Position numbers and translations under genes: made by a program
Part shown: piece after piece, positions 2,065 to 14,176 of the stretch
How the letters are laid out: every line of letters starts with the position of its first letter
How positions within the stretch are numbered: the stretch's first letter is position 1
The notes under the pieces: model-generated
Seen by the model: the letters and a program-made list of their open reading frames with translations, nothing else
What the model was told of the DNA's origin: nothing
Databases searched by the model: none
Source: a virus
IMG/VR virus record: IMGVR_UViG_3300028840_008160
Coordinates: 1 to 64,000 of that record
Reading direction: 5' to 3' (one strand)
Length of the DNA stretch: 64,000 nt

Positions 2065-2834
2065 ATTCTTTTTGAATATTCGCAATTTCTACAAATAACT
2101 GGTTCATCCTCTGATTTTACACGCCTTAAAAAGTCATTATATTCTATTGTGTTGAATAAGTCGTTGTAATAACGATCAAATATGTTGCCGATTTTGTGCT
2201 TAAGACTAAAGTCGCAACAACATATATAGACATCTCCATTTGGTAGGCATACGTTGTTTACGTATTTGAATGGTAGTTGATGAACTTTTTGACATGTTAT
2301 TGGGCCAGACTTATAATTGACATTGAAATTTAAATTGTTTGCTCGTGAAATAATTGGTAATTTTAGGACTGATAAATCATTAAAGTCATTAGTTGGCTGA
2401 CCGAGTGACACGAAAATAATTTTGGAGTTGTGTTTGCTGATTAATTCTATGTTTTGCAATATGACAGTTGAGTCAGTTATGAAATGATTGTTGTCTGGCA
2501 AATGCACACATATTGTAGCTTTTGACCATATAGATAAATCTATATCTTCTAGTTTTATCGATAATGTAGTATAAATCATACAAGGTCTATTGTCGCGAAT
2601 AGTTTTATCTATCATTTTAAAACTGTCTGGATTTTGTAATGGTTCACAAAAGCCAGCAAAGTCAATTTGCACATGTTTAGGTAAATTGTTTAGTATTTGA
2701 CAAAAGTTAGTAAATGATAAAGTTGGTTGTCCTTTGTACACTTTGATAAGATTGTTTTGTGGACAACAGCTGCAGTGGTTTATGCATGGGATTGCAGTTG
2801 TTATTTCAAAAGTAGGATAATTTGCAAATGTCAT
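2061..2834 (-). CDS. Radical SAM/SPASM-type protein
   Basis: The 257-residue protein has the radical SAM [4Fe-4S] motif CxxxCxxC at C17, C21 and C24 (the last followed by Pro). A GFCEPL segment sits where GGEPL is usual. Its C-terminal part has GDVYICCCDF, a GNI strand and a final C..C pair, the pattern of a SPASM or twitch auxiliary cluster domain. Such proteins usually modify peptides or proteins by radical chemistry using S-adenosylmethionine. It is the last gene of a six-gene minus-strand run and overlaps the upstream gene by ATGA. The substrate is unknown; the preceding small proteins are possible partners by position only. A second SPASM protein, at 28.0 kb, is distinct. Confidence 0.8.
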   Translation of the reverse strand: MTFANYPTFEITTAIPCINHCSCCPQNNLIKVYKGQPTLSFTNFCQILNNLPKHVQIDFAGFCEPLQNPDSFKMIDKTIRDNRPCMIYTTLSIKLEDIDLSIWSKATICVHLPDNNHFITDSTVILQNIELISKHNSKIIFVSLGQPTNDFNDLSVLKLPIISRANNLNFNVNYKSGPITCQKVHQLPFKYVNNVCLPNGDVYICCCDFSLKHKIGNIFDRYYNDLFNTIEYNDFLRRVKSEDEPVICRNCEYSKRI

Positions 2835-3307
2835 AGTATGAATCCATCATACGGTTCTGTTGTTCTAATAAATTCTTCAGTAAATTCTTTTCCTCGCTCT
2901 TGTAGAACTTCTTTAATCATCGAGATATAATAAGATGGTATAATTCCATTTTGTGACGGGTTTATTGTAACAAAGGCAAAAATTCGATCACTCTTACCAA
3001 TTTCTAAGGTTGTCATGACATTTGTTGTAACATTTTTGAAAGCGTAACATTTTCCAACCATTTCTGATTTGCATAAAGGCGCTATATCATCTTTTGATAT
3101 TTTGAAGATGATGCCGTTGATATGCGTTGATATTTGAGATTCAATGCCTAAAAATAGTTTGCCTTCCCAAACTGTGTTCCATGCACGTTTAAAGTAACAT
3201 AATTTAGCTTGATGAAGGTCTTTATTTTTGTAAGTTTTTTTGAGACCTCTGCCATTAATTCCGGCAATAGATGCTAAAGTACAATACCCAAAAATGTAGT
3301 ACGACAT
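2831..3307 (-). CDS. Gamma-glutamylcyclotransferase-like (GGCT/AIG2 fold) protein
   Basis: The N-terminus (YYIFGYCTLAS) matches the nucleotide-like loop YGSL pattern of the gamma-glutamylcyclotransferase fold. A later segment (HINGIIFKISKDD.APL...E..GKCYAF..V) matches the family's core strand-helix-strand. E82 falls at the expected catalytic acid. These enzymes release 5-oxoproline from gamma-glutamyl amines or glutathione. At 158 residues it is close to family length. It lies between a Nudix gene (2 bp upstream) and a radical SAM gene (ATGA overlap), so it belongs to that operon. The family assignment is from motif memory, and the glycine of the substrate loop is replaced, so activity on gamma-glutamyl peptides is uncertain. 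Confidence 0.6.
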   Translation of the reverse strand: MSYYIFGYCTLASIAGINGRGLKKTYKNKDLHQAKLCYFKRAWNTVWEGKLFLGIESQISTHINGIIFKISKDDIAPLCKSEMVGKCYAFKNVTTNVMTTLEIGKSDRIFAFVTINPSQNGIIPSYYISMIKEVLQERGKEFTEEFIRTTEPYDGFIL

Positions 3308-3309
3308 AC

Positions 3310-3852
3310 TTATTTGTTGAGAAGTTTTTGAAGTCGTAAAAACATAACTGAAACTTGTGGATCTTTACTTTCTTCTACATTTGATGTTTCAGCCCAAACG
3401 CATGCAGCTTTCTTTTCTAATTCTGAACCGTCACCTGTAGCTTCGCCACGATCTTTGTCTGTAAGATTTATTGTGTATAGATAGTAAACTGTGTCGGCAG
3501 ATTTTGAAGCAAAACTAGTTCCAAGACTGATTAGTTCATTTTTATCAGCTTTGTAACCACCTTCTTCTTTTAGTTCCATTATAGCAGTGTCTCTAGGGTC
3601 GCCGCCTTCAAATCCACCCGTAATTGAACTAATGTATTGATTTAATCCCCAACAAGGTGTGACTTCATTTCTGAGAAGAAGTTCAATACCAGAAGATGTT
3701 AGTCTGTATGGTAGTAAAGCAATGATTTTGCCTTCGCATCTTGATTCATGCGAGAAAAAATATCCATTAACACCATTTTCGGGATCAATCATTTTTTTGA
3801 GAGCAAGAAATGATTTGTCACCTACTTTTCCTTCGCAGATAGTCTCAATCAT
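3310..3852 (-). CDS. Nudix hydrolase
   Basis: A Nudix box is visible in the middle of the 180-residue protein: TGGFEGGDPRDTAIMELKEE followed by GGY. It has the ELKEEGG core that binds metal and pyrophosphate, but lacks one residue (the first Glu position of GX5E) and has Met in place of the box Arg. Such enzymes cleave nucleoside diphosphates linked to another moiety, ADP-ribose and NADH being common substrates. A strong AGGAGG site precedes the ATG. Given NAD salvage genes and a macrodomain within 10 kb, an ADP-ribose or NAD-type substrate is plausible but not shown. An RNA-cap or mutagenic nucleotide substrate is the main alternative. Confidence 0.8.
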   Translation of the reverse strand: MIETICEGKVGDKSFLALKKMIDPENGVNGYFFSHESRCEGKIIALLPYRLTSSGIELLLRNEVTPCWGLNQYISSITGGFEGGDPRDTAIMELKEEGGYKADKNELISLGTSFASKSADTVYYLYTINLTDKDRGEATGDGSELEKKAACVWAETSNVEESKDPQVSVMFLRLQKLLNK

Positions 3853-5252: not shown

Positions 5253-5340
5253 AGATTATGAAATGTTTGTCGATACACCTCTTTGGTGTTGATGATAGTG
5301 AGTAGGAGGAGTCAATGAAAATTGGCTCCTCCTTTTTCTT
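5253..5340 (+). ncRNA. Candidate small RNA or leader ending in an intrinsic terminator
   Basis: The stretch has no open reading frame of note but contains a 5 bp hairpin (ACACC 5275-5279 with GGTGT 5285-5289) followed by a long terminator hairpin. The upstream neighbours are on the other strand, so a + strand terminator here has no coding gene to end. A short RNA, or an attenuator leader for the pncB-nadE operon, would explain it. Start point is inferred from the candidate promoter. Confidence 0.35.
5304..5340 (+). terminator. Strong intrinsic terminator with GAAA tetraloop
   Basis: AGGAGGAGTCAAT pairs with ATTGGCTCCTCCT (13 positions, one G-T pair) around a GAAA loop, followed by TTTTTCTTT. 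It lies between the divergent gene groups and just before the NAD-salvage operon. The stem itself contains an AGGAGG sequence that is sequestered when folded. Confidence 0.75.
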
Positions 5341-5365: not shown

Positions 5366-5587
5366 ATGGACACATCAGTTGGAAATCTACGAAAAATGTT
5401 AGAGAGTTTGCCAGATGAGGCAGACATTGTGACTGAAGATTGGGATGGTGCTGCTATTAGAAGAATGAATCATAGCACAAATGAGCCCTTAGCACTGGAA
5501 GAATTGCTTATGGTTCATGATGGTAGACTCTATATTGTCAATAAGCAAGCTACTGAAAACGAATGTCATCGATGGCAACGAGGTTGA
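5366..5587 (+). CDS. Hypothetical protein, 73 aa, upstream of pncB
   Basis: The 73-residue acidic protein has the pattern VGNLRKMLESLPDEADIV, a helix then strand often seen at the N-terminus of small phage proteins of unknown role. The ATG has no good ribosome binding site, which lowers confidence in the exact start. The stop lies 2 bases before the preferred start of pncB, so the two are likely co-transcribed and coupled. Confidence 0.55.
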   Translation: MDTSVGNLRKMLESLPDEADIVTEDWDGAAIRRMNHSTNEPLALEELLMVHDGRLYIVNKQATENECHRWQRG

Positions 5588-5589
5588 CT

Positions 5590-6774
5590 ATGCAAGGACC
5601 AATAAGCGCAATCGACAATGATCAGTACAAGTTCTCAATGCAAAATGGTGTTGTGAAGTTGTTTCCTCGCGAAATTGTTCGATACGAGTTTTTTAATCGA
5701 GGCAAACATGAGTTTCCGGATGGATTTGCGAAACTTCTGCGTGAACTAGTAGATATGTATGCTGCTATTACATTTGTCAAAGATGACATCGATTTTTTTA
5801 GAGAAAAAGCTTACTATTTTGATCCTGCATATCATTCGTTTTTACGAGGCTACAGATATGATCCGTCAGAAGTGAAAATCATTCAAGAAGGTTACAATCT
5901 TCAAGTAATTGTGGAGGGCTTATGGCACAAAACAATTCTATGGGAAGTGCCGCTTATGGCATTGATCTGCGAATTGTATTATGAAATGACTAAACAACAA
6001 CCAAAAGACAGAAAAGAACGAGAGCAAATCAACAAAGAGAAAGTTATTGCTCTTACAAAATTGTTAATCAAAGCAGCAGAATTTGGAACAAGACGACGGT
6101 TTTCTTTTATTAATCAAAAAGAGTTTTTAATTGATGCTATAACTTATGGCAATTTTGCTGGACATAAACTTCTTTCTGGAACAAGCAATGTATATTTTGC
6201 ACGTGAACTTGATCTTCTATCAATAGGTACACAAGCTCATGAGTGGTACATGTTTCACGCTGCGAAGTATGGTTTTAGAATGGCTAACTTGCTCGGTATG
6301 GAAAACTGGGTTAAAGTATATAATGGAGATTTGGGAATAGTTCTTCCAGATACATTCACCACTGATGCTTTTCTCAAGTCTTTTAATACAATGTTTGCAA
6401 AGCTGTTCGACGGCAGTAGACAAGATAGTGATTGTCCGTTCGCATACACAGATAAATTTGTCAAACATTATCGTGATTTGAAAATTCCGTCACAACACAA
6501 AACAATTGTTTATTCTGACGGAATAAGCAGTGTTAAAACCGTGAGTGATATCAAGGAATATGCAACAGGAAAAGTGCAAGACGGATATGGTATTGGTACA
6601 TGGTTTACAAACGATGTTGGTCTTAAGCCGATGAATATCGTTATTAAGATGACAGCTGCATTTATAAACGGAGTATGGGTACCTACAATTAAGTTGTCTG
6701 ACGCAGCAACGAAGAATACAGGAGATCAGATTCAAATTGGAATTGCTAAACATGAATTAGGGATAAATGTATGA
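5590..6774 (+). CDS. pncB: Nicotinate phosphoribosyltransferase
   Basis: The 394-residue protein matches the length of bacterial PncB (about 400) rather than the longer NAMPT/NadV. Conserved segments are DNDQYKFSMQ (9-18), ILWEVPLMALICE, FGTRRRFS, SGTSN, GTQAHEWY with the phosphorylated histidine at H217, KTIVYSD, YGIGT and NIVIK. The enzyme joins nicotinate to PRPP to make nicotinate mononucleotide, usually driven by ATP. The frame begins earlier (5563), but the ATG at 5590 follows CGAGG and comes just after the upstream stop. With nadE next and pncA 4 kb downstream it forms most of a Preiss-Handler NAD salvage route. Confidence 0.93.
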   Translation: MQGPISAIDNDQYKFSMQNGVVKLFPREIVRYEFFNRGKHEFPDGFAKLLRELVDMYAAITFVKDDIDFFREKAYYFDPAYHSFLRGYRYDPSEVKIIQEGYNLQVIVEGLWHKTILWEVPLMALICELYYEMTKQQPKDRKEREQINKEKVIALTKLLIKAAEFGTRRRFSFINQKEFLIDAITYGNFAGHKLLSGTSNVYFARELDLLSIGTQAHEWYMFHAAKYGFRMANLLGMENWVKVYNGDLGIVLPDTFTTDAFLKSFNTMFAKLFDGSRQDSDCPFAYTDKFVKHYRDLKIPSQHKTIVYSDGISSVKTVSDIKEYATGKVQDGYGIGTWFTNDVGLKPMNIVIKMTAAFINGVWVPTIKLSDAATKNTGDQIQIGIAKHELGINV

Positions 6775-6919
6775 TAGCTTTCATCAGTTTAGTTTTTTTG
6801 TTGATATTATTGACAGACTTGTCAATTACGATAAAGAACATGTAAGAATTAGAATAATAATAGTGGAACAGAATAGGAAAAAAATGTATGGACAACTTGG
6901 TGTATACGACAAAGATTAG
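6767..6919 (+). CDS. Candidate small protein, 50 aa, between pncB and nadE
   Basis: An ATG at 6767 follows AGGG and opens a 50-codon frame ending at TAG 6919. It overlaps pncB by 8 bases and nadE by 32. The predicted peptide (begins MYDSFHQFSFFVDIIDRLVN) has balanced composition with helix-forming and charged residues. A rival reading starts at 6771, overlaps the pncB stop in ATGA and gives a 24-residue hydrophobic peptide. Either or neither may be translated; no family is recognised. Confidence 0.35.
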   Translation: MYDSFHQFSFFVDIIDRLVNYDKEHVRIRIIIVEQNRKKMYGQLGVYDKD

Positions 6920-7796
6920 TGATAGTGCTTATGCTTATGCAGTAAAGAAAATGCAAAACATTTTTCGTCAGTATTTAATTGATAACAATCGAAAAGCTGT
7001 TGTTATTGGAATGTCGGGTGGTATTGATAGTGCTCTAACTGCAGCTTTGGCTGGGCAAGTATGTGCAGAATTAGAAATACCGCTTGTTGGTAGAAGTCTA
7101 CCAATAATGACGAATAAACCTGATGAAGTAGAACGTGCCGCAAGAGCTGGTAAAATATTTTGTTCTAATTTTGGTGAAAAAGATTTAACTAGTGCATATA
7201 CTGCTTTACACGAATTGATGGATGACATTGATGCTAGCAGTGATGAGCAATTAACTTTGACAGTAAAGATTCGAGAAGGTAATATTAAAGCGCGAACAAG
7301 AATGATATATCTTTATGATCTTGCTAGAAAAAATGATGGATTGGTTTTGTCAACTGATAACTATACAGAATTAATGCTCGGTTTCTGGACACTTCATGGT
7401 GATGTAGGCGATTTTGGATTACTTCAGAATATTTGGAAAACAGAAGTATATGAAATGGCAAGATTTTTATGTCGCGCAGGATTAGATGATGATGCTATTC
7501 AAATACTAAAAGACACTATTACTGCTGTTCCGACAGATGGTTTAGGAATTACAAATAGTGATTTAGATCAGCTTGGAGCAGGCAGCTATGAAGAGGTTGA
7601 CAAAATTTTGATGACATATTTATCTGGTTCAAGAAAAGAATATATGAATCATCCAGTTATCATAAGACATTTGACATCTGTTTATAAGAGAGCGAATCCT
7701 GTTAATATAGCTAGAAAAGATATTCTTCCTTCTGTTTATAAGAGAGCGAATCCTGTTAATATAGCTAGAAAAGATATTCTTCCTTTAACAGCATGA
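6888..7796 (+). CDS. nadE: NAD synthetase, ammonia-dependent type
   Basis: The 302-residue protein has the ATP pyrophosphatase P-loop GMSGGIDSAL (41-50) and the motifs EGNIKARTRM, LSTDNYTE, LGF.T..GD and a C-terminal KR..P tail, all typical of NadE. It converts nicotinate adenine dinucleotide to NAD using ATP and ammonia; no glutaminase domain is present. It is somewhat longer than the bacterial enzyme (about 275) because the C-terminal 18 residues with the KR..P signature are exactly duplicated. It follows pncB and precedes a PP2C gene by 6 bases. The missing step between them, NadD, is not in the window. Confidence 0.93.
   Translation: MDNLVYTTKISDSAYAYAVKKMQNIFRQYLIDNNRKAVVIGMSGGIDSALTAALAGQVCAELEIPLVGRSLPIMTNKPDEVERAARAGKIFCSNFGEKDLTSAYTALHELMDDIDASSDEQLTLTVKIREGNIKARTRMIYLYDLARKNDGLVLSTDNYTELMLGFWTLHGDVGDFGLLQNIWKTEVYEMARFLCRAGLDDDAIQILKDTITAVPTDGLGITNSDLDQLGAGSYEEVDKILMTYLSGSRKEYMNHPVIIRHLTSVYKRANPVNIARKDILPSVYKRANPVNIARKDILPLTA
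7677..7784 (+). repeat. Perfect 54 bp tandem duplication in nadE
   Basis: Bases 7677-7730 and 7731-7784 are identical. The repeat keeps frame and duplicates the residues SVYKRANPVNIARKDILP at the C-terminus of NadE. Lack of any difference suggests a recent duplication, or an assembly artefact. Confidence 0.95.
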
Positions 7797-7802
7797 GATT
7801 TT

Positions 7803-8552
7803 ATGTGGATAAAGAATCAAGCAATCATCGTCGGAACTGATCACATTCATACTAAGACTAATCGTCAAGATTATGTATTAACTTATAGTGATAGAGATAT
7901 TACATGCGGCGTTGTGTGTGACGGTTGCAGTTCTGGACAATTTTCTGAATTTGGTGCATGTTTTATTGCAAATTTAGTAATAAAATTATTGAAAACTAAT
8001 CGAGAAGCAACTGCTGAATTGTTGACAGTTGAAATGATGATTGAAATAAAACGTGCTATAGACAGCGTTCTTTTTTTACTTCATGATTATTCAACAACAT
8101 TGCCTATAGATATAGCACATTTTATTGAACATCATTTTTTATCGACATTTGTTTTTTGCATGATAGCTGGTGATAGAATTATCATAGGTCGTTGCGGTGA
8201 TGGCTTGACGATTGTAAATGGTATAGCTGACATTGCTGATCAGAAGAATGCGCCGCATTATATTGCGTATAACAATGTGCCGAAATTTTTGTTATCAACG
8301 TCAGATTTGAATGGCATTGAAATACAGGTATTAAATGAAGTAGAGGTGAACAGCATTGTTATTGGTACAGATGGATTGGTGCCGCTTCTAGAAGCTAATG
8401 AAGGTCATGAATTGTTTGGAACTGAGAAGAGACAGTTACAACGGAAATTTAATGTATGGCAAAATAAAAGACAGTTATTTCATGATGATGTTTCATGCGT
8501 TGTTTTTGAAAAGGTGAAGAATGAAGATAGTATTATGCGGGCAAACGATTGA
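7803..8552 (+). CDS. PP2C-type serine/threonine phosphatase
   Basis: The 249-residue protein has the ordered metal-binding motifs of PP2C enzymes: RQDY (D23), VVCDGCSSG (D40-G41), GRCGDG, IGTDGL (D190) and DDVSC (228-232). It would remove phosphate from serine or threonine residues. It overlaps the kinase gene by 32 bases, a classic pairing of a kinase and its counteracting phosphatase. With a vWA gene downstream the arrangement resembles TerY-P modules described from comparative genomics. Whether it acts on host or phage proteins is not visible. Confidence 0.85.
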   Translation: MWIKNQAIIVGTDHIHTKTNRQDYVLTYSDRDITCGVVCDGCSSGQFSEFGACFIANLVIKLLKTNREATAELLTVEMMIEIKRAIDSVLFLLHDYSTTLPIDIAHFIEHHFLSTFVFCMIAGDRIIIGRCGDGLTIVNGIADIADQKNAPHYIAYNNVPKFLLSTSDLNGIEIQVLNEVEVNSIVIGTDGLVPLLEANEGHELFGTEKRQLQRKFNVWQNKRQLFHDDVSCVVFEKVKNEDSIMRAND

Positions 8553-10383
8553 TTTAGATCAGAGCAAATTACTTGGCAGTGGTGGTGAGGCTAATGTTAT
8601 TAGACATGGCAAATATGCAATAAAAGTGTATCATAAACCGACCGTTGACAGAATTCAGAAATTGACTGATTTTTTTAAGAAGGGATTTAATTTACCAAAT
8701 AATGTTTTCAGTCCTATCGAGCCTGTGACAAGCACTAAAGGTAAGATGATAGGTTTTGCCATGCAGGCAGCAACAAAAAAGTGTCCTGAGTTTATTCATC
8801 TTTACGATACTACGTTTCGTAGCACACAACGTATTAGTTCGGTGGATATTGTTAAGTTATTTATTCACACTAAACAAACGCTGGATGCTATACATCAACT
8901 TGGATTGGTAGTAGGTGATTTTAATGATTTAAATCAACTTTTTGACGATACATTTTCTTCTATCTTTATAGATGTAGATTCTTATCAGTTTGATAATTAT
9001 CCATGTATAGTCGGGACAGATTCATATATCGATCCAAATTTGTATGGATTTGATTTGACTAAGAAGCCGTCATTTTCAAAACAAACTGATTGGTACTCGT
9101 TTGCTGTTTTACTATTTAGAAGTTTATTGTTTGTGCATCCTTATGGAGGATTTTACAAAAAATATAAGACGCTATTTGCACGAGCTCAAAATAATGTATG
9201 GGTATTTGATAGTAATGTTATTAAGCCAAAAATAGGATTACATCCGGAAACATTGAGCGACGAGTTGTTGAGTTATTTTGATGCAATATTCACGAAAGGT
9301 CAACGATTAGATTTACCATTACATCTTTTGCAGCAGCAAACATTTAACGAATGTAAAGTTTGCGGCACGCAATTTAGTCATACACGAGGTAAATGCCCAC
9401 AATGTCAGAAAGTCGCCCCGTTTAAGACTGTTGATGTTAGTAGTATTTTAACACATAAAGTTATTGGCAATGAGAAGTGTGAGACTACAACTGTATTCGA
9501 AGTTAACGGCACAATTTTGTTTGTCAAAGTTGTTGCTGGTATAATAGTAATAGTATCGTATGATGACAGTTCAACAGTGCTTGATACAATTGATACGAGT
9601 GGCTATAAGCAACGTGTAGTGTTGTGGTCTGGGCACAGAAAAGATGTAAAGTTTGATTTTATGTTTCCATCATGTTTGGTTGTTGGGTATGATAAAACAT
9701 TAATATTACTACATATTGGTGATAGTGACGCTAAAGAAATTGTTAAAACAACAACAATGACATTTTTAGATGAACCTATTTTTGGATGTAGTGAAAGTCA
9801 TTTGTATCGTTTGACACCAACGATGATAATGTCATCGCAATTACACCGTTCAGGTCAGTTAATAGAAAAAGGATTAGTATCAGCTGTAGCAAATCAAACG
9901 CAGTTTTTTGTGGGACAAAATCAATTTGGTTTGGGATTCTATAGAGTTTTCAGTGATTATAAATTCTTTACGGTGTCTGACATACAAGGTAGACATGAGG
10001 TAGAATTAGATCAATTAAATGGACAGATGATTGATATTGATGTCAAAGTATCTGTTAATAGTTTGATTTTATTGCGAAAGAGTTTGAATAAAGGTCGGAC
10101 ATATTCACATTGGCATATGATAAATGATAAAGGTCAGGTTGTTGAATCTAAGTCAGAAGAGTCAATTAATTCAGAATTGCTTAGAAACATTCATGGAAAG
10201 GAGCTCGCAGGGTCTAATATCATTCATTCTACAGATGCAGGTATTGCCGTTGAGAAGCATGGTAATGTATCGTTGAAGGTATCAACAGCAGAGATTGTTA
10301 ATACAGGTCATAGATTAATGTTATACAAACACGGACTGTTAGCAGTTTCTGAAAAGAAAATCGTGTATCTTGTTTTGAAGTAG
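8521..10383 (+). CDS. Protein kinase with zinc ribbon and C-terminal beta-rich domain
   Basis: The kinase domain spans about residues 15-265. It has a glycine loop LGSGGEANV (18-26), the ATP lysine K35, a catalytic loop GDFNDLN (D133, N138), a metal aspartate in IDVDSYQF in place of DFG, and TDWYSFAVLLF. A zinc ribbon follows (C278, C281, C292, C295), then about 320 residues of repeated beta strands that look like a propeller. Total 620 residues. The start has AAGG seven bases upstream and lies inside the PP2C gene. This domain order, with an adjoining PP2C gene, fits the TerY-P kinases. Substrates are unknown; a role in rewiring host signalling or defence is inference. Confidence 0.82.
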   Translation: MKIVLCGQTIDLDQSKLLGSGGEANVIRHGKYAIKVYHKPTVDRIQKLTDFFKKGFNLPNNVFSPIEPVTSTKGKMIGFAMQAATKKCPEFIHLYDTTFRSTQRISSVDIVKLFIHTKQTLDAIHQLGLVVGDFNDLNQLFDDTFSSIFIDVDSYQFDNYPCIVGTDSYIDPNLYGFDLTKKPSFSKQTDWYSFAVLLFRSLLFVHPYGGFYKKYKTLFARAQNNVWVFDSNVIKPKIGLHPETLSDELLSYFDAIFTKGQRLDLPLHLLQQQTFNECKVCGTQFSHTRGKCPQCQKVAPFKTVDVSSILTHKVIGNEKCETTTVFEVNGTILFVKVVAGIIVIVSYDDSSTVLDTIDTSGYKQRVVLWSGHRKDVKFDFMFPSCLVVGYDKTLILLHIGDSDAKEIVKTTTMTFLDEPIFGCSESHLYRLTPTMIMSSQLHRSGQLIEKGLVSAVANQTQFFVGQNQFGLGFYRVFSDYKFFTVSDIQGRHEVELDQLNGQMIDIDVKVSVNSLILLRKSLNKGRTYSHWHMINDKGQVVESKSEESINSELLRNIHGKELAGSNIIHSTDAGIAVEKHGNVSLKVSTAEIVNTGHRLMLYKHGLLAVSEKKIVYLVLK

Positions 10384-10393
10384 GAGGATTTTT

Positions 10394-10678
10394 GTGGCTA
10401 AGAAATTGTATGTTGGTAATCTCCCTTGGAGTGCTACTGACGAAAGTCTGCGCGATTTTTGCGCACAGTTTGGTGAAGTTGTATCGGCTCAGGTAATCAC
10501 GGATCGAGAGTCTGGTCGGTCACGTGGTTTTGGTTTCGTCGAAATGACAAATGCTGATGAAGCAATGTCTTTACTTAATGGTAAAGATTTTGACGGCAGA
10601 CAGCTCAAGGTGAATGAAGCCCGTGAGCGGCAGAAACCACAAAGAAGCGGTGGTGAATATAACAGAAACAGATATTAA
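10394..10678 (+). CDS. RNA-recognition-motif (RRM) protein
   Basis: The 94-residue protein is a single RRM with RNP2 LYVGNL (5-10) and RNP1 RGFGFVEM (44-51), plus a short basic tail. It is like the small glycine-rich RNA-binding proteins of bacteria. It binds single-stranded RNA and may help stability or translation of phage or host transcripts. The start is GTG with AGGAGG in front. Codon use is richer in G and C than in the kinase gene before it, as in the pncA and vWA genes that follow, suggesting high expression or a different origin. Confidence 0.9.
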   Translation: MAKKLYVGNLPWSATDESLRDFCAQFGEVVSAQVITDRESGRSRGFGFVEMTNADEAMSLLNGKDFDGRQLKVNEARERQKPQRSGGEYNRNRY

Positions 10679-10730
10679 GCCTAGTTAGCTATACTGAGTT
10701 ATCTTTTAACTTATCTTATGGAGGTGTAGC

Positions 10731-11693
10731 ATGAATAAACCTACGTTTTATGATCCGGCTAAAATAGGTACATTGTACCTTCCACGGCTAGCAGACATAG
10801 AGGCAGAAGCTGCGAAAGTAAGTATTCCGGCTTCTGCCTCTGATCGTCCCGGTGCTAAAGTTGCACTGATGCTTATCGATTTTCAAATTGATTTTTGCCA
10901 TAAGACAGGGTCGTTGTATGTCAATGGTGCAGAAAAAGACATAGAGAATGCTGTCAACTTCATTTTAGCAAATCTTGAGCGGCTTACGAACATTTTTGCG
11001 TCTTTGGATTCACACCTTCTTTTCCAGATTTTCTATCGTACATGGTGGCAATTACAGAACGGCGAGAAGCCTGATTTGTTTACAGAAATTTACAAAGAAG
11101 GTGGTTCTGGCCCAATGGCGAAGAATATTGACAGCGGTGATGTTCGACCGTTGCTTGACCCTGTTAACAGTATCAGCTATACTGAAAAGTTGATGCTTCA
11201 GGCAAATAAGCCTCTTTGCATTTGGCCATATCATACAATGCTTGGTACTCCGGGACAGGCGATGGATCCTGCATTGTACGAAGTTTTGGCTTATCATGCG
11301 TTTGTCAGGAAGACACAGTTGAATTTCTTACAGAAGGGACAAATACCTCAAACTGAAATGTATGGTATTCTCAGCCCTGAGGTAAAGATGCCGAATCATC
11401 CACAAGGCGGATTCAACACTGATTTTCTTAACATTCTGATGAAGCATGATAAAGTTATTATTGCCGGCGAGGCAAAGAGTCATTGTGTGTTGGCTTCTAT
11501 CATGCAGATTCATGAGTTTTTCAGCAAAACAGACCCTGATGTTTTGAAGAAAGTATTCATTTTGGAAGATTGTATGAGTTCTGTGCCTCATCCAGCGATT
11601 GATTTTGAAGCTATTGCTGTTGCTGAATTTGACAAATTCAGAAATTCTGGCATTAACATCGTCAAAAGTACCGATTTGGATCTTACAGCATAA
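10731..11693 (+). CDS. pncA: Nicotinamidase (isochorismatase-like hydrolase)
   Basis: The 320-residue protein carries the cysteine hydrolase set of nicotinamidases: catalytic D50 in LIDFQIDFC, metal ligands D93 and H95 in SLDSH, H168 in WPYHTM.GTPG, the lysine in RKTQ (K194) and nucleophile C252 in GEAKSHCV. It would convert nicotinamide to nicotinate, the substrate of PncB. It is longer than PncA of E. coli (about 213), with an N-terminal 40-residue extension and inserts. A GGAGG site precedes the ATG. Its position near pncB and nadE supports nicotinamide as substrate, but other isochorismatase-family amides cannot be excluded. Confidence 0.82.
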   Translation: MNKPTFYDPAKIGTLYLPRLADIEAEAAKVSIPASASDRPGAKVALMLIDFQIDFCHKTGSLYVNGAEKDIENAVNFILANLERLTNIFASLDSHLLFQIFYRTWWQLQNGEKPDLFTEIYKEGGSGPMAKNIDSGDVRPLLDPVNSISYTEKLMLQANKPLCIWPYHTMLGTPGQAMDPALYEVLAYHAFVRKTQLNFLQKGQIPQTEMYGILSPEVKMPNHPQGGFNTDFLNILMKHDKVIIAGEAKSHCVLASIMQIHEFFSKTDPDVLKKVFILEDCMSSVPHPAIDFEAIAVAEFDKFRNSGINIVKSTDLDLTA

Positions 11694-11722
11694 GATTCAG
11701 ACTTCATATTAAAGGAGGTAAC

Positions 11723-12505
11723 ATGTCATCAAATCCGATTGGCATTACAGATATTAAAAGTCTTGTATCTAATGCCGTAAGTGAGAATGAGGTTAGCGAT
11801 GCTGCAGGTCAGATAATGATAAGCAGCTTGAACGACACAAATATTCTTGGTTGTACCGGTGTTGATGTCGACGATCTTACTGTCGACAATGTGACATTGG
11901 TATCAATCGCGCTAGACGCGTCATATTCAATGTACGAACATGAACAGACTGTTCGTGAAGCATATGATGAATTGGTCATCAAAGCTATGAAAGAATCAAA
12001 GCAGGCGAATTCAATGCTTGTCAGCACTCGAGTCTTTGACGAAACTGATCGAATTCTTTATGGATTCAAGAAAGTCGAGGATGTTGGCAAAGTTGGTAGT
12101 CAATATACAGCACAAGGCGGAGCTACGCTACTTCATGATACAGCTATTGCAGCCATGACTGGCATTCGTGCTTATGCCAAGAACTTGAATGATAGTGGCG
12201 TACAGACAAAATGTATTGTTGTTGTCATGTCAGATGGAGGCAATAATACAGGGACTTTGAGTCCTGATCCTGTCAAGAAACTTGCTGAAGACTGTATCAA
12301 GTCAGAAATGTTCTATTTGGTGTATGTTGGATTTAAACAACACTCATCAGATAATCTTGAGGCAATCGGCAAGTCAATGGGATTTCCCAATGTATTGACT
12401 GCTGCTAAATCTCCTAGCGAAATGAGAAAAGCTATGGGTCTTGTTAGTCAATCAATTATTCGTGCTAGTCAAACACAGGTCGGGCCAAGTAATTCTTTCT
12501 TTTGA
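11723..12505 (+). CDS. vWA-domain protein with full MIDAS (TerY-like)
   Basis: The 260-residue protein has a von Willebrand A fold with a complete metal-ion-dependent adhesion site: DASYS (D65, S67, S69), T135 in GGATLLHD and D171 in VMSDGG. Such domains mediate metal-dependent protein contacts. It lies downstream of PP2C and kinase genes and is followed by an intrinsic terminator, so it probably ends the operon. TerY is the closest recognised type by context. The strong AAGGAGG site and codon use suggest high expression. Confidence 0.8.
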   Translation: MSSNPIGITDIKSLVSNAVSENEVSDAAGQIMISSLNDTNILGCTGVDVDDLTVDNVTLVSIALDASYSMYEHEQTVREAYDELVIKAMKESKQANSMLVSTRVFDETDRILYGFKKVEDVGKVGSQYTAQGGATLLHDTAIAAMTGIRAYAKNLNDSGVQTKCIVVVMSDGGNNTGTLSPDPVKKLAEDCIKSEMFYLVYVGFKQHSSDNLEAIGKSMGFPNVLTAAKSPSEMRKAMGLVSQSIIRASQTQVGPSNSFF

Positions 12506-12530
12506 GTTTACTAATACAATAACATAAAAT

Positions 12531-12556
12531 GGTCGGTTAAAACCGGCCTTTTCTTT
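12531..12556 (+). terminator. Intrinsic terminator after the vWA gene
   Basis: GGTCGGTT pairs with AACCGGCC (8 positions, one G-T pair), followed by TTTTCTTT. It closes the RRM-pncA-vWA group. Confidence 0.8.
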
Positions 12557-12602
12557 GTAGTGTCATTGATTTATTTAATGATTATATTTAAGGAGGTGAT
12601 GA

Positions 12603-13106
12603 ATGATTAAATATCTTAAAGGTGATGCCACAGCACCGGTGTTAGATAAAGCATTGATAGCACACGTTTGTAATAATTGGGGAGGTTGGGGGGCTGGATT
12701 TGTATTAGCTATCTCAAAACGATGGTCTGAACCAGAAAAAGCATATCGTGACTGGTATAAAGGTATAGTAGACAATATCGCACAAGAACGTGACAAGGAT
12801 AAATTTGCATTAGGTAATGTGCAATTTGTGCTGGTGTTTGATAAAGGTATTTGGGTAGCTAACATGATTGCGCAAGACGGTTTCAAGAAAGCTGGCGATC
12901 CAAAAGACAAAGTTTATTTAGATTATGATGCGCTTAACATGACTCTTTGTGAAGTTTGCAAATTTGCAAGAAAGAAAGGTCTGACATTACATATGCCTAG
13001 AATAGGTTGCGGTCTTGCAGGAGGGCGATGGGATTTGATTGAACCATTACTTGAGACTCATTCTGATGATAACAAAGTTGATGTATACGTGTATGATTTT
13101 GAATGA
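12603..13106 (+). CDS. Macrodomain protein (ADP-ribose binding or hydrolysing)
   Basis: The 167-residue protein is a complete macrodomain: GDAT..(V) near residue 7, IAHVCNNWGGWGAGF with the ADP-ribose loop, a SKRW segment and PRIGCGLAGGRWD near the C-terminus. Relatives remove ADP-ribose from proteins or nucleic acids, or dephosphorylate ADP-ribose 1''-phosphate. AAGGAGGTG precedes the ATG. Close to NAD-salvage genes, it may undo ADP-ribosylation by host toxins or recycle NAD breakdown products, which is inference. It overlaps the next gene by ATGA. Confidence 0.88.
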   Translation: MIKYLKGDATAPVLDKALIAHVCNNWGGWGAGFVLAISKRWSEPEKAYRDWYKGIVDNIAQERDKDKFALGNVQFVLVFDKGIWVANMIAQDGFKKAGDPKDKVYLDYDALNMTLCEVCKFARKKGLTLHMPRIGCGLAGGRWDLIEPLLETHSDDNKVDVYVYDFE

Positions 13107-13489
13107 AACAAATTATTTTATATCCATGGCATAGTACAACTAGAGCTGAGTTTATACAAGCTCTTAAATCTAATCCAGAGCAAGCAACACTTGTTAAAGG
13201 AAACGACATTGTTAAGAGTAAAATGCGGTTTAATGTTGAGCCGAATAGAAATGATTGCAGTTCTTTGCATGAATTTAAAGACTATGAAATAACTATAAAA
13301 TGCTCTGATGGTGATGCAACTATTGTTTTAGATGATGGCAAGTTTGTATTTATTGAAGATTCAAATGTTCAAGAATTAAGTAAATATGAATTTATTTTAA
13401 ATGAAATACAAGAAGAAGAAAAGACAGAGCCGACAAGACAGCAAAGACAGCAAATGGCAAAACCTAGAAAGCCTTTTAAATTTAGGTAA
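13103..13489 (+). CDS. Hypothetical protein, 128 aa, basic C-terminus
   Basis: Its start overlaps the macrodomain stop in ATGA. The first 100 residues look like a small alpha/beta domain with alternating strands (ITIKCSDGDATIVLDDGKFVFIED), then a Glu- then Arg/Gln-rich tail ends in KPRKPFKFR. No family is recognised. It is co-expressed with the macrodomain gene and the next gene 3 bases downstream. Confidence 0.65.
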   Translation: MKQIILYPWHSTTRAEFIQALKSNPEQATLVKGNDIVKSKMRFNVEPNRNDCSSLHEFKDYEITIKCSDGDATIVLDDGKFVFIEDSNVQELSKYEFILNEIQEEEKTEPTRQQRQQMAKPRKPFKFR

Positions 13490-13492
13490 GAT

Positions 13493-14176
13493 ATGAAACA
13501 GTTATTTAAAGCTGATTTTGTTCGTGATTCTTTTTTCACATATACAACCGGCATGCGTGATAAAAATGCTGTTCAACAAATTATGCTGGCGTATAGATTA
13601 GCTAAATATGCTCAAATGAATAAGTTTGGTGGTGATAATATTGATAGACCGAAAATTGCTGTGAAGATATTTTTGTTTTTGGTAAAACAATTTAGAAGGT
13701 CTTATACAAACATTAAGCTTGAAATTGATGTGACAGCTATATTGTTAAGTTATGTCATTCGCAATTCATACATGCTAACACAAGATGATGTTATAAAGAT
13801 ATTTGGACAAAACGTTGATAAAAAAGTTGCAGAATTAATTGGCTTTGATCGAATTGTAGATTCAAGAGCAAAAATTACAATTGCTAAACAATCTAAGTTT
13901 AAAGATGAGATTTCAAAGCAGACGATGATTATGCGTGCAGCTATAACAATGGCAGAATTAAGAACATTAACGTTAACTAAAGCAAGAGCATTTCCTGCAA
14001 AAGTATATGAACGCTATTTGCCGGTTTTTAACGCTTATCCAGATGTTTGTCATGTAGTAGCTAATGAGTTAAAAATATGGTTGGTTAAAAAATTGAAAGA
14101 AGCACAATCAAGCACAGATTATAATTTAACATCAGGAAATATGTTTTCATATTTTACTATTTTGCAAGATTTATAA
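13493..14176 (+). CDS. Degenerate RelA/SpoT-like HD-fold protein (tentative)
   Basis: The helical pattern AYRLAKYAQ..KFGG...RPKIAVKIFLFLV then ILLSYVIRNSYMLTQDDVIKIFG..VDKKVAELIGF, and later a TMIMRAAITMAELRTL helix, follows the order of the ppGpp hydrolase domain of SpoT-type proteins. The metal-binding H and HD residues are absent (RPK for HPx, LLSY for LLHD), so hydrolysis is unlikely. A binding or decoy role toward (p)ppGpp or a similar nucleotide is possible. The match is from pattern reading only and could be a different helical family. It meets the opposing gene tail-to-tail with a 6 base overlap. Confidence 0.4.
   Translation: MKQLFKADFVRDSFFTYTTGMRDKNAVQQIMLAYRLAKYAQMNKFGGDNIDRPKIAVKIFLFLVKQFRRSYTNIKLEIDVTAILLSYVIRNSYMLTQDDVIKIFGQNVDKKVAELIGFDRIVDSRAKITIAKQSKFKDEISKQTMIMRAAITMAELRTLTLTKARAFPAKVYERYLPVFNAYPDVCHVVANELKIWLVKKLKEAQSSTDYNLTSGNMFSYFTILQDL

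Follow-up and report, generated by a model that had tools for sequence, protein, structure and literature searches.

The stretch of DNA analysed here, called the window throughout, is the first 64 kb (64,000 nucleotides) of the virus record IMGVR_UViG_3300028840_008160, which is 329,800 bases long and is identified as a phage by terminase, portal and prohead protease genes detected at 42–50 kb. A + strand gene run at 5366–12505 comprises a small open reading frame (ORF) followed by genes for a nicotinate phosphoribosyltransferase (NAPRT), the nicotinamide adenine dinucleotide (NAD) synthetase NadE, a PP2C-type phosphatase, a Ser/Thr protein kinase (KIN), an RRM protein, a nicotinamidase-like hydrolase (ISO) and a vWA protein (Table 1). 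The PP2C, kinase, vWA and ISO genes make up a four-gene module that is conserved among huge phages, the quartet. A first-pass annotation had described the first three as a TerY-P-like phosphorylation triad interleaved with NAD-salvage genes. It placed the ORFs correctly, including the 32-base overlap between PP2C and the kinase, and it understated the interleaving: a nicotinamidase-like protein is itself a core member, and genes for NAPRT, NadE and NadD cluster with the module.

Conservation of the four-gene module in huge phages

The first relatives were found in four phage records, and each of these, as well as the IMG/VR contig L006, pairs the triad with a relative of ISO. Searching viral contigs with profile alignments of the kinase (A1) and of ISO (A2) gave 42 and 80 loci, respectively, and merging overlapping loci left 89 non-redundant groups, among them the window and the four phage records. 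All four genes lie on one strand in 81 of these 89 virus contigs, and because the co-directional set recurs so widely, the genes are associated above chance. The order ISO-VWA-PP2C-KIN is found in 64 quartets, the window's order PP2C-KIN-ISO-VWA in 14 and other orders in three. The median gap between ISO and vWA is 38 bp, PP2C and kinase overlap in 19 quartets, and divergence is deep (about 20–64% identity). Eight groups are incomplete: a contig end or short flank can explain at least four of them (L025, L033, L050 and L116) and cannot explain L029, L076 and L112, while L079 holds a kinase fragment only.

The ISO-anchored search recovered a kinase in 74 of 80 loci, and the kinase-anchored search recovered ISO in all but two loci, one of these exceptions lying at a contig end. 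As anchor genes bias such counts, the search was repeated from the vWA side. A mixed vWA alignment (A3) proved too diverse as a query and two narrower vWA alignments were used instead; all four genes were present in 65 of 79 loci, and ISO accompanied 71 of the 72 close vWA proteins. The seven vWA-anchored loci without any other member all carry distant vWA proteins. A single-protein search with the vWA protein returned no relatives, and for PP2C, where a tblastn scan of phages gave no match, profiles were required. The RRM gene, whose product had been suggested as a kinase substrate, is almost confined to the window phage (2 of roughly 120 viral loci have an RRM gene) and was rejected as a module partner or substrate on that ground.

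Bacterial relatives of the ISO family number more than 575, and the neighbours of the best 80 were examined: 14 of these loci carry all four genes and others carry partial sets. Many of the bacterial ISO loci come from metagenome bins, which may contain phage DNA. A quartet lies on a 416-kb scaffold of Lachnospiraceae bacterium A4, and in Variovorax sp. SRS16 all four genes are carried by a linear replicon of 801 kb. On this replicon (NZ_LR594667.1, listed as a plasmid) the quartet extends over approximately 24 kb at 608–641 kb, together with pncB, NadE, NADAR and NAD kinase genes; similar replicons occur in two other strains, and a scan of NZ_LR594667.1 with one terminase profile gave no match. 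Triads without a nicotinamidase (vWA-PP2C-kinase) are found on plasmids of Granulicella, Sinorhizobium, Rhizobium and Trichormus.

A kinase-domain tree, built by a quick method with seven triad-only kinases and one long outgroup, places the quartet kinases, viral and bacterial, and the triad-only kinases on opposite sides of a branch with support of 93. The bacterial quartet kinases are nested among the viral ones. In the nicotinamidase tree, stand-alone and quartet forms are intermixed, with nine changes between them, and the link of ISO to the triad has thus been gained or lost more than once.

Active sites and predicted folds of the four proteins

The window ISO protein alone scores 23.3 bits, under the Pfam Isochorismatase cut-off of 27, and its annotation from that family is therefore weak. 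A profile of six of its relatives nevertheless ranks solved nicotinamidases first in the PDB (best match yeast Pnc1, 1.7e-15), and hhalign comparison with Escherichia coli PncA (2.1e-15) brings the D, D-x-H, WPxH, KG and C blocks into register. The AlphaFold model has a mean confidence (pLDDT) of 94.6, and its top dozen or more Foldseek matches are all nicotinamidases; isochorismatase-like and biuret hydrolases and maleamate amidases follow at lower ranks. Residue conservation was counted in 83–89 aligned relatives per protein. The catalytic triad of ISO is complete and almost invariant (D50 in 88/89 relatives, K202 and C252 in 89/89), as are the metal residues D93 (89/89), H95 and H168 (each 88/89). 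From these alignments and the model, ISO is predicted to convert nicotinamide into nicotinate. No fusion of two quartet proteins, which would have directly proved an interaction, was found; one viral locus, L021, encodes at 9236–11014 an ISO with an extra N-terminal part of approximately 290 residues.

The window kinase falls below significance against Pfam at the default threshold (PF00069, E 0.003). Its identity as a protein kinase follows instead from the profile of its relatives, which matches solved kinases, and from its AlphaFold model (mean pLDDT 91.2), whose Foldseek matches are kinase domains. The glycine loop, K35, D133, N138 and D151 are all kept, and these four residues are nearly invariant among relatives (K35 in 82/84, D133 and D151 in 84/84). 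Besides the kinase fold and the tail, the model shows a ribbon-like stretch and a disordered linker (residues 299–315). The zinc ribbon that the first-pass annotation had noticed is present as CKVC-x10-CPQC, with cysteine pairs C278-x2-C281 and C292-x2-C295; it is kept in only 12 of 88 quartet kinases and was rejected as a defining trait. The tail had been called beta-rich, and the secondary structure of the model bears this out, with approximately 28 strands at residues 310–620. These could form a seven-bladed propeller of four strands per blade. The propeller reading rests on the strand count, because a Foldseek search with the whole kinase chain ranked only kinase domains and gave no propeller match for the tail.

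All PP2C catalytic residues are present (D23, D40-G41, D133, D190 and D229), and the Asp/Gly core is kept in 82–83 of 83 relatives (D40 in 82; D133, D190 and D229 in 83). The vWA protein possesses, as had been claimed, a complete metal ion-dependent adhesion site (MIDAS), formed by D65-S67-S69, T135 and D171. Across relatives this site is kept in 81–85 of 85: D65, S69, T135 and D171 are invariant and S67 is replaced by Thr in four. The near-invariance of the catalytic residues in all four proteins fits working enzymes under selection, as opposed to remnants. L005, a phage fragment from the human gut, encodes a further vWA protein, of the DUF2828/DUF7788 type, immediately upstream of its quartet (2255–3706).

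NAD-salvage genes and the gene run

After the quartet members themselves, the commonest neighbours in the 89 groups are NAPRT (26), NadE (25), a metallophosphoesterase (15), NadD (10) and NADAR-like proteins (9), with Nudix, KptA-like and macro proteins also recurring; neighbours were grouped by protein clustering and several were named by eye from sequence. The enrichment was quantified in 48 non-redundant records of 109–619 kb, counting genes within 10 kb of ISO and taking random placement as the expectation. NAPRT was found in this interval 8 times against 2.0 expected (P 3e-4), NadE 15 times against 2.4 and NadD 8 times against 1.3. Over the full records, 32 of 48 carry NAPRT, 31 carry NadE and 38 carry at least one of NAPRT, NadE and NadD. 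NAD genes are also inserted between quartet members: NAPRT in L047 and L052, NAPRT with NadE in L061 and NadD in L116. The KptA-like RNA 2′-phosphotransferases and NADAR-like proteins near quartets (e.g. L023 2097–2657 and L017 19715–20152) are both tied to NAD and ADP-ribose chemistry.

The window phage (G000) has a NadD gene at 178279–178782 of its record, scoring above the curated cut-off. As NadD joins ISO, NAPRT and NadE, this phage encodes all four enzymes of the deamidating route from nicotinamide through nicotinate, nicotinate mononucleotide and nicotinate adenine dinucleotide to NAD, the function of ISO being predicted. The ORF that contains NadD (approximately 178.0–179.0 kb) begins with a stretch that by eye resembles MazG, possibly a pyrophosphohydrolase–NadD fusion. 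Weak PF04095 matches in other records were considered as NadV or nicotinamide phosphoribosyltransferase (NAMPT), an identity that would have undercut the nicotinamidase reading, and were rejected: the phosphoribosyltransferases that were fetched score best as nicotinate enzymes, and the deamidating route is therefore the common theme.

Table 1. Features of the gene run and its flanks, in window coordinates.
Feature	Position	Strand	Evidence or remark
Terminator-like hairpin ahead of the gene run, 13 pairs	5304..5333 (5343 including tail)	+	T-rich tail TTTTCTTTGT
NAPRT/PncB, nicotinate phosphoribosyltransferase	5563..6774	+	TIGR01514 342.8 bits, cut-off 269.55; upstream of the quartet, co-directional
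NAD synthetase NadE	6888..7796	+	TIGR00552 125 bits, cut-off 63.65; 6-base gap to PP2C
PP2C-type Ser/Thr phosphatase, quartet member	7803..8552	+	PF13672 3.2e-19
Ser/Thr protein kinase with zinc ribbon and beta-propeller-like tail	8521..10383	+	residues; AlphaFold 2 model and Foldseek; profile match to YegI
Zinc ribbon of the kinase	9352..9405	+	two CxxC pairs
Beta-strand tail of the kinase	9448..10380	+	secondary structure of the model
RRM RNA-binding protein, between kinase and nicotinamidase, non-core	10394..10678	+	PF00076 1.8e-20
Nicotinamidase-like hydrolase (ISO), fourth core member	10731..11693	+	profile, hhalign, fold, residues
vWA protein, complete MIDAS	11723..12505	+	PF00092 exactly at cut-off (23.8 bits)
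Terminator-like hairpin just 3′ of vWA	12531..12548 (12558 including tail)	+	tail TTTTCTTTGT, as for the upstream hairpin

The gene run appears to be transcribed as a single unit, and the hairpin just 3′ of vWA is possibly the end of the transcript. Its intergenic gaps are short, and the start codons of the kinase, RRM, nicotinamidase and vWA genes each follow a good ribosome-binding sequence. The terminator-like hairpins are only a weak hint, because their count in the region (5) hardly exceeds the 3.7 expected by chance. The 10-mer TTTTCTTTGT occurs in the window at 5334, 12549, 20998, 57197 and 57407, five copies against 0.8 expected; at least two of the five form the T-tail of a hairpin, and the 10-mer may serve this phage as a common terminator tail. 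Immediately after the putative terminator, at 12603–13106, lies a macro-domain-like phosphatase gene (phrog_335, 1.5e-33), and a few other phages have similar genes close to their quartets. The end of NadE contains a perfect 54-base tandem duplication (7677–7784) that adds 18 residues, with SVYKRANPVNIARKDILP present twice; it is either a recent event or an assembly artefact.

Interpretation and comparison with known systems

It seems, by a small balance of probability, that the quartet is a deamidating NAD-salvage system with a Ser/Thr phospho-switch of its own. ISO would deamidate nicotinamide to nicotinate, which would supply the phage NAPRT, NadD and NadE and so be converted to NAD by the Preiss–Handler route. 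The kinase, PP2C and vWA proteins may form a reversible switch over salvage, or over proteins close to it, in which the propeller-like kinase tail would probably serve for sensing or docking and the vWA protein as a putative metal-dependent peptide-binding adaptor. Cleavage of NAD by defence NADases yields nicotinamide and ADP-ribose, from which some phages are able to remake NAD by routes other than this one (PMC12774641, PMC13232231, PMC11984713); such rebuilding thus has a clear benefit, and the likely advantage of the quartet would be to restore NAD that host NADases have cleaved. This suggests that giant phages replenish the NAD of the host and hold the on/off switch of the process themselves.

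Several observations count against a phosphorylation-controlled salvage system. That NAD enzymes are substrates of the kinase is conjecture. At a fourth position that may bind metal, 77 of 89 ISO relatives have His and the window protein has Tyr102. Among the best 80 bacterial ISO loci, 57 have no kinase, PP2C or vWA gene nearby. About a third of the 48 quartet records, which may be fragments, lack a detected NAPRT or NadE, and the quartet therefore need not always feed an NAD pathway.

The first-pass annotation had supposed that the triad could reprogramme host signalling or counter defence, and no sequence evidence shows either. A related and rather unlikely explanation is that the quartet is a host-directed signalling or defence device like TerY-P or YegIKL, acting on proteins of the host or of superinfecting phages, with the nicotinamidase as a partner effector and the NAD genes as general cargo. 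Such a device agrees with the homology of the triad to YegI-PphC-YegL and to plasmid triads that lack a nicotinamidase, and also with the existence of bacterial quartets, the 10 of 48 phage records without detected NAPRT, NadE or NadD, and the report of TerY-P-like modules as stand-alone antiphage systems (PMC11090510). General cargo, however, would not be expected to cluster with the quartet as far above expectation as NadE, NadD and NAPRT do, nor to sit between quartet genes in several phages, and PADLOC did not recognise the proteins. Chance adjacency of independent huge-phage genes is scarcely credible. Auxiliary genes of phages are often grouped by accident or shared timing, but the 81 of 89 contigs, the two gene orders, the deep divergence and the three independent anchors refute this for the quartet; it could stand for the RRM and macro genes only.

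The remaining alternatives concern ISO itself. Yeast Pnc1, its best PDB sequence match, removes nicotinamide, an inhibitor of Sir2. ISO might likewise clear nicotinamide as a product inhibitor of NAD consumers, such as phage KptA-like or ADP-ribosyl enzymes, rather than serve NAD synthesis. The recurrence of KptA-like, NADAR-like and macro genes near quartets accords with this role, which is improbable given that the product users NAPRT and NadE are the commonest neighbours and NAD-consuming neighbours are rarer. Equally doubtful, or a shade more so, is that ISO acts on another amide or is a regulatory binding protein, in a module not concerned with nicotinamide. The isochorismatase-like fold also covers the biuret hydrolases and maleamate amidases seen lower in the fold search, and the window protein has Tyr at the fourth possible metal position; yet the D-x-H and WPxH metal residues and the D-K-C triad are present, the top sequence and fold matches are all nicotinamidases, and the genes cluster with those of nicotinate-using enzymes.

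TerY-P is defined by a TerY-like vWA protein, a PP2C and a Ser/Thr kinase with a C-terminal zinc ribbon; it is associated with Ter, CoCoNuT and defence loci, and variants with an OB-fold kinase act as antiphage systems (PMC11090510). The phage module shares the three protein types, adjacent and co-directional, with a zinc ribbon in the window kinase and a MIDAS in the vWA protein, and the phage vWA profile matches the TerY-like vWA proteins of bacterial triads (1e-6 to 4e-11). It differs in that it almost always adds a nicotinamidase-like gene, that its kinase tail is propeller-like, that most quartet kinases lack the ribbon and that these kinases stand apart from the sampled triad-only kinases. 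PADLOC 2.0.0 made no TerY-P call for the PP2C, kinase and vWA proteins, the presence of TerY-P models in that release being unconfirmed, and no Ter, McrBC/CoCoNuT or restriction genes occur among the ten annotated proteins of 5563–14176. The proposed TerY-P likeness holds for the architecture and the profile matches to YegI, PphC, YegL and the plasmid triads, and not for the PADLOC call. The ribbon, present in the window kinase and in few of its relatives, and the tree, with its seven triad-only kinases, are equivocal evidence. The E. coli yegI-pphC-yegL locus is matched as one locus by the phage profiles (YegI 7e-26, PphC 1e-6, YegL 5e-4); it contains no nicotinamidase, has yegJ between yegI and pphC, and is distant in sequence. 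PncA and Pnc1 share with ISO the D-K-C triad, the D-x-H and WPxH metal residues and the fold, whereas phage ISO is longer (approximately 300 residues versus approximately 210, with long inserts) and scores under the Pfam cut-off.

A survey of viral NAD systems describes NadV with NadM or NadR, and the terms nicotinamidase, isochorismatase and PP2C are missing from its text (PMC9503650); the words PP2C and TerY are absent from an overview of jumbo phages (PMC7824862). Word searches of open-licence literature found no description of the quartet, and an earlier account elsewhere is possible. NARP1, NARP2 and the NadV-NadM/NadR systems resemble the proposed salvage system in that phages carry the means to rebuild NAD from nicotinamide. 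They differ from the window route, which would run through nicotinate (nicotinamidase, NAPRT, NadD and NadE) and is joined to a putative kinase/phosphatase switch (PMC12774641, PMC9503650, PMC11984713). Direct use of nicotinamide (Adps with Namat, or NAMPT/NadV), the NARP trait, was not found, and the window phosphoribosyltransferase is of the nicotinate type above the curated cut-off. Phages are known to answer NAD-depleting immunity by remaking NAD out of nicotinamide or ADP-ribose, and the papers compared describe no regulation. It is plausible, if somewhat short of probable, that the quartet represents a third type of NAD reconstitution in huge phages, deamidating and regulated, with its entry enzyme tied to a kinase/PP2C/vWA phospho-switch; this would amount to NAD- or nicotinamide-linked phosphorylation signalling common to phages and a few bacteria. 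Nicotinamide salvage coupled to reversible phosphorylation would then constitute a new route, and the first with regulation. The long-puzzling TerY-P and YegIKL triads would in turn gain a readily assayable biochemical partner, making the question of what kinase–phosphatase–vWA triads control directly testable.

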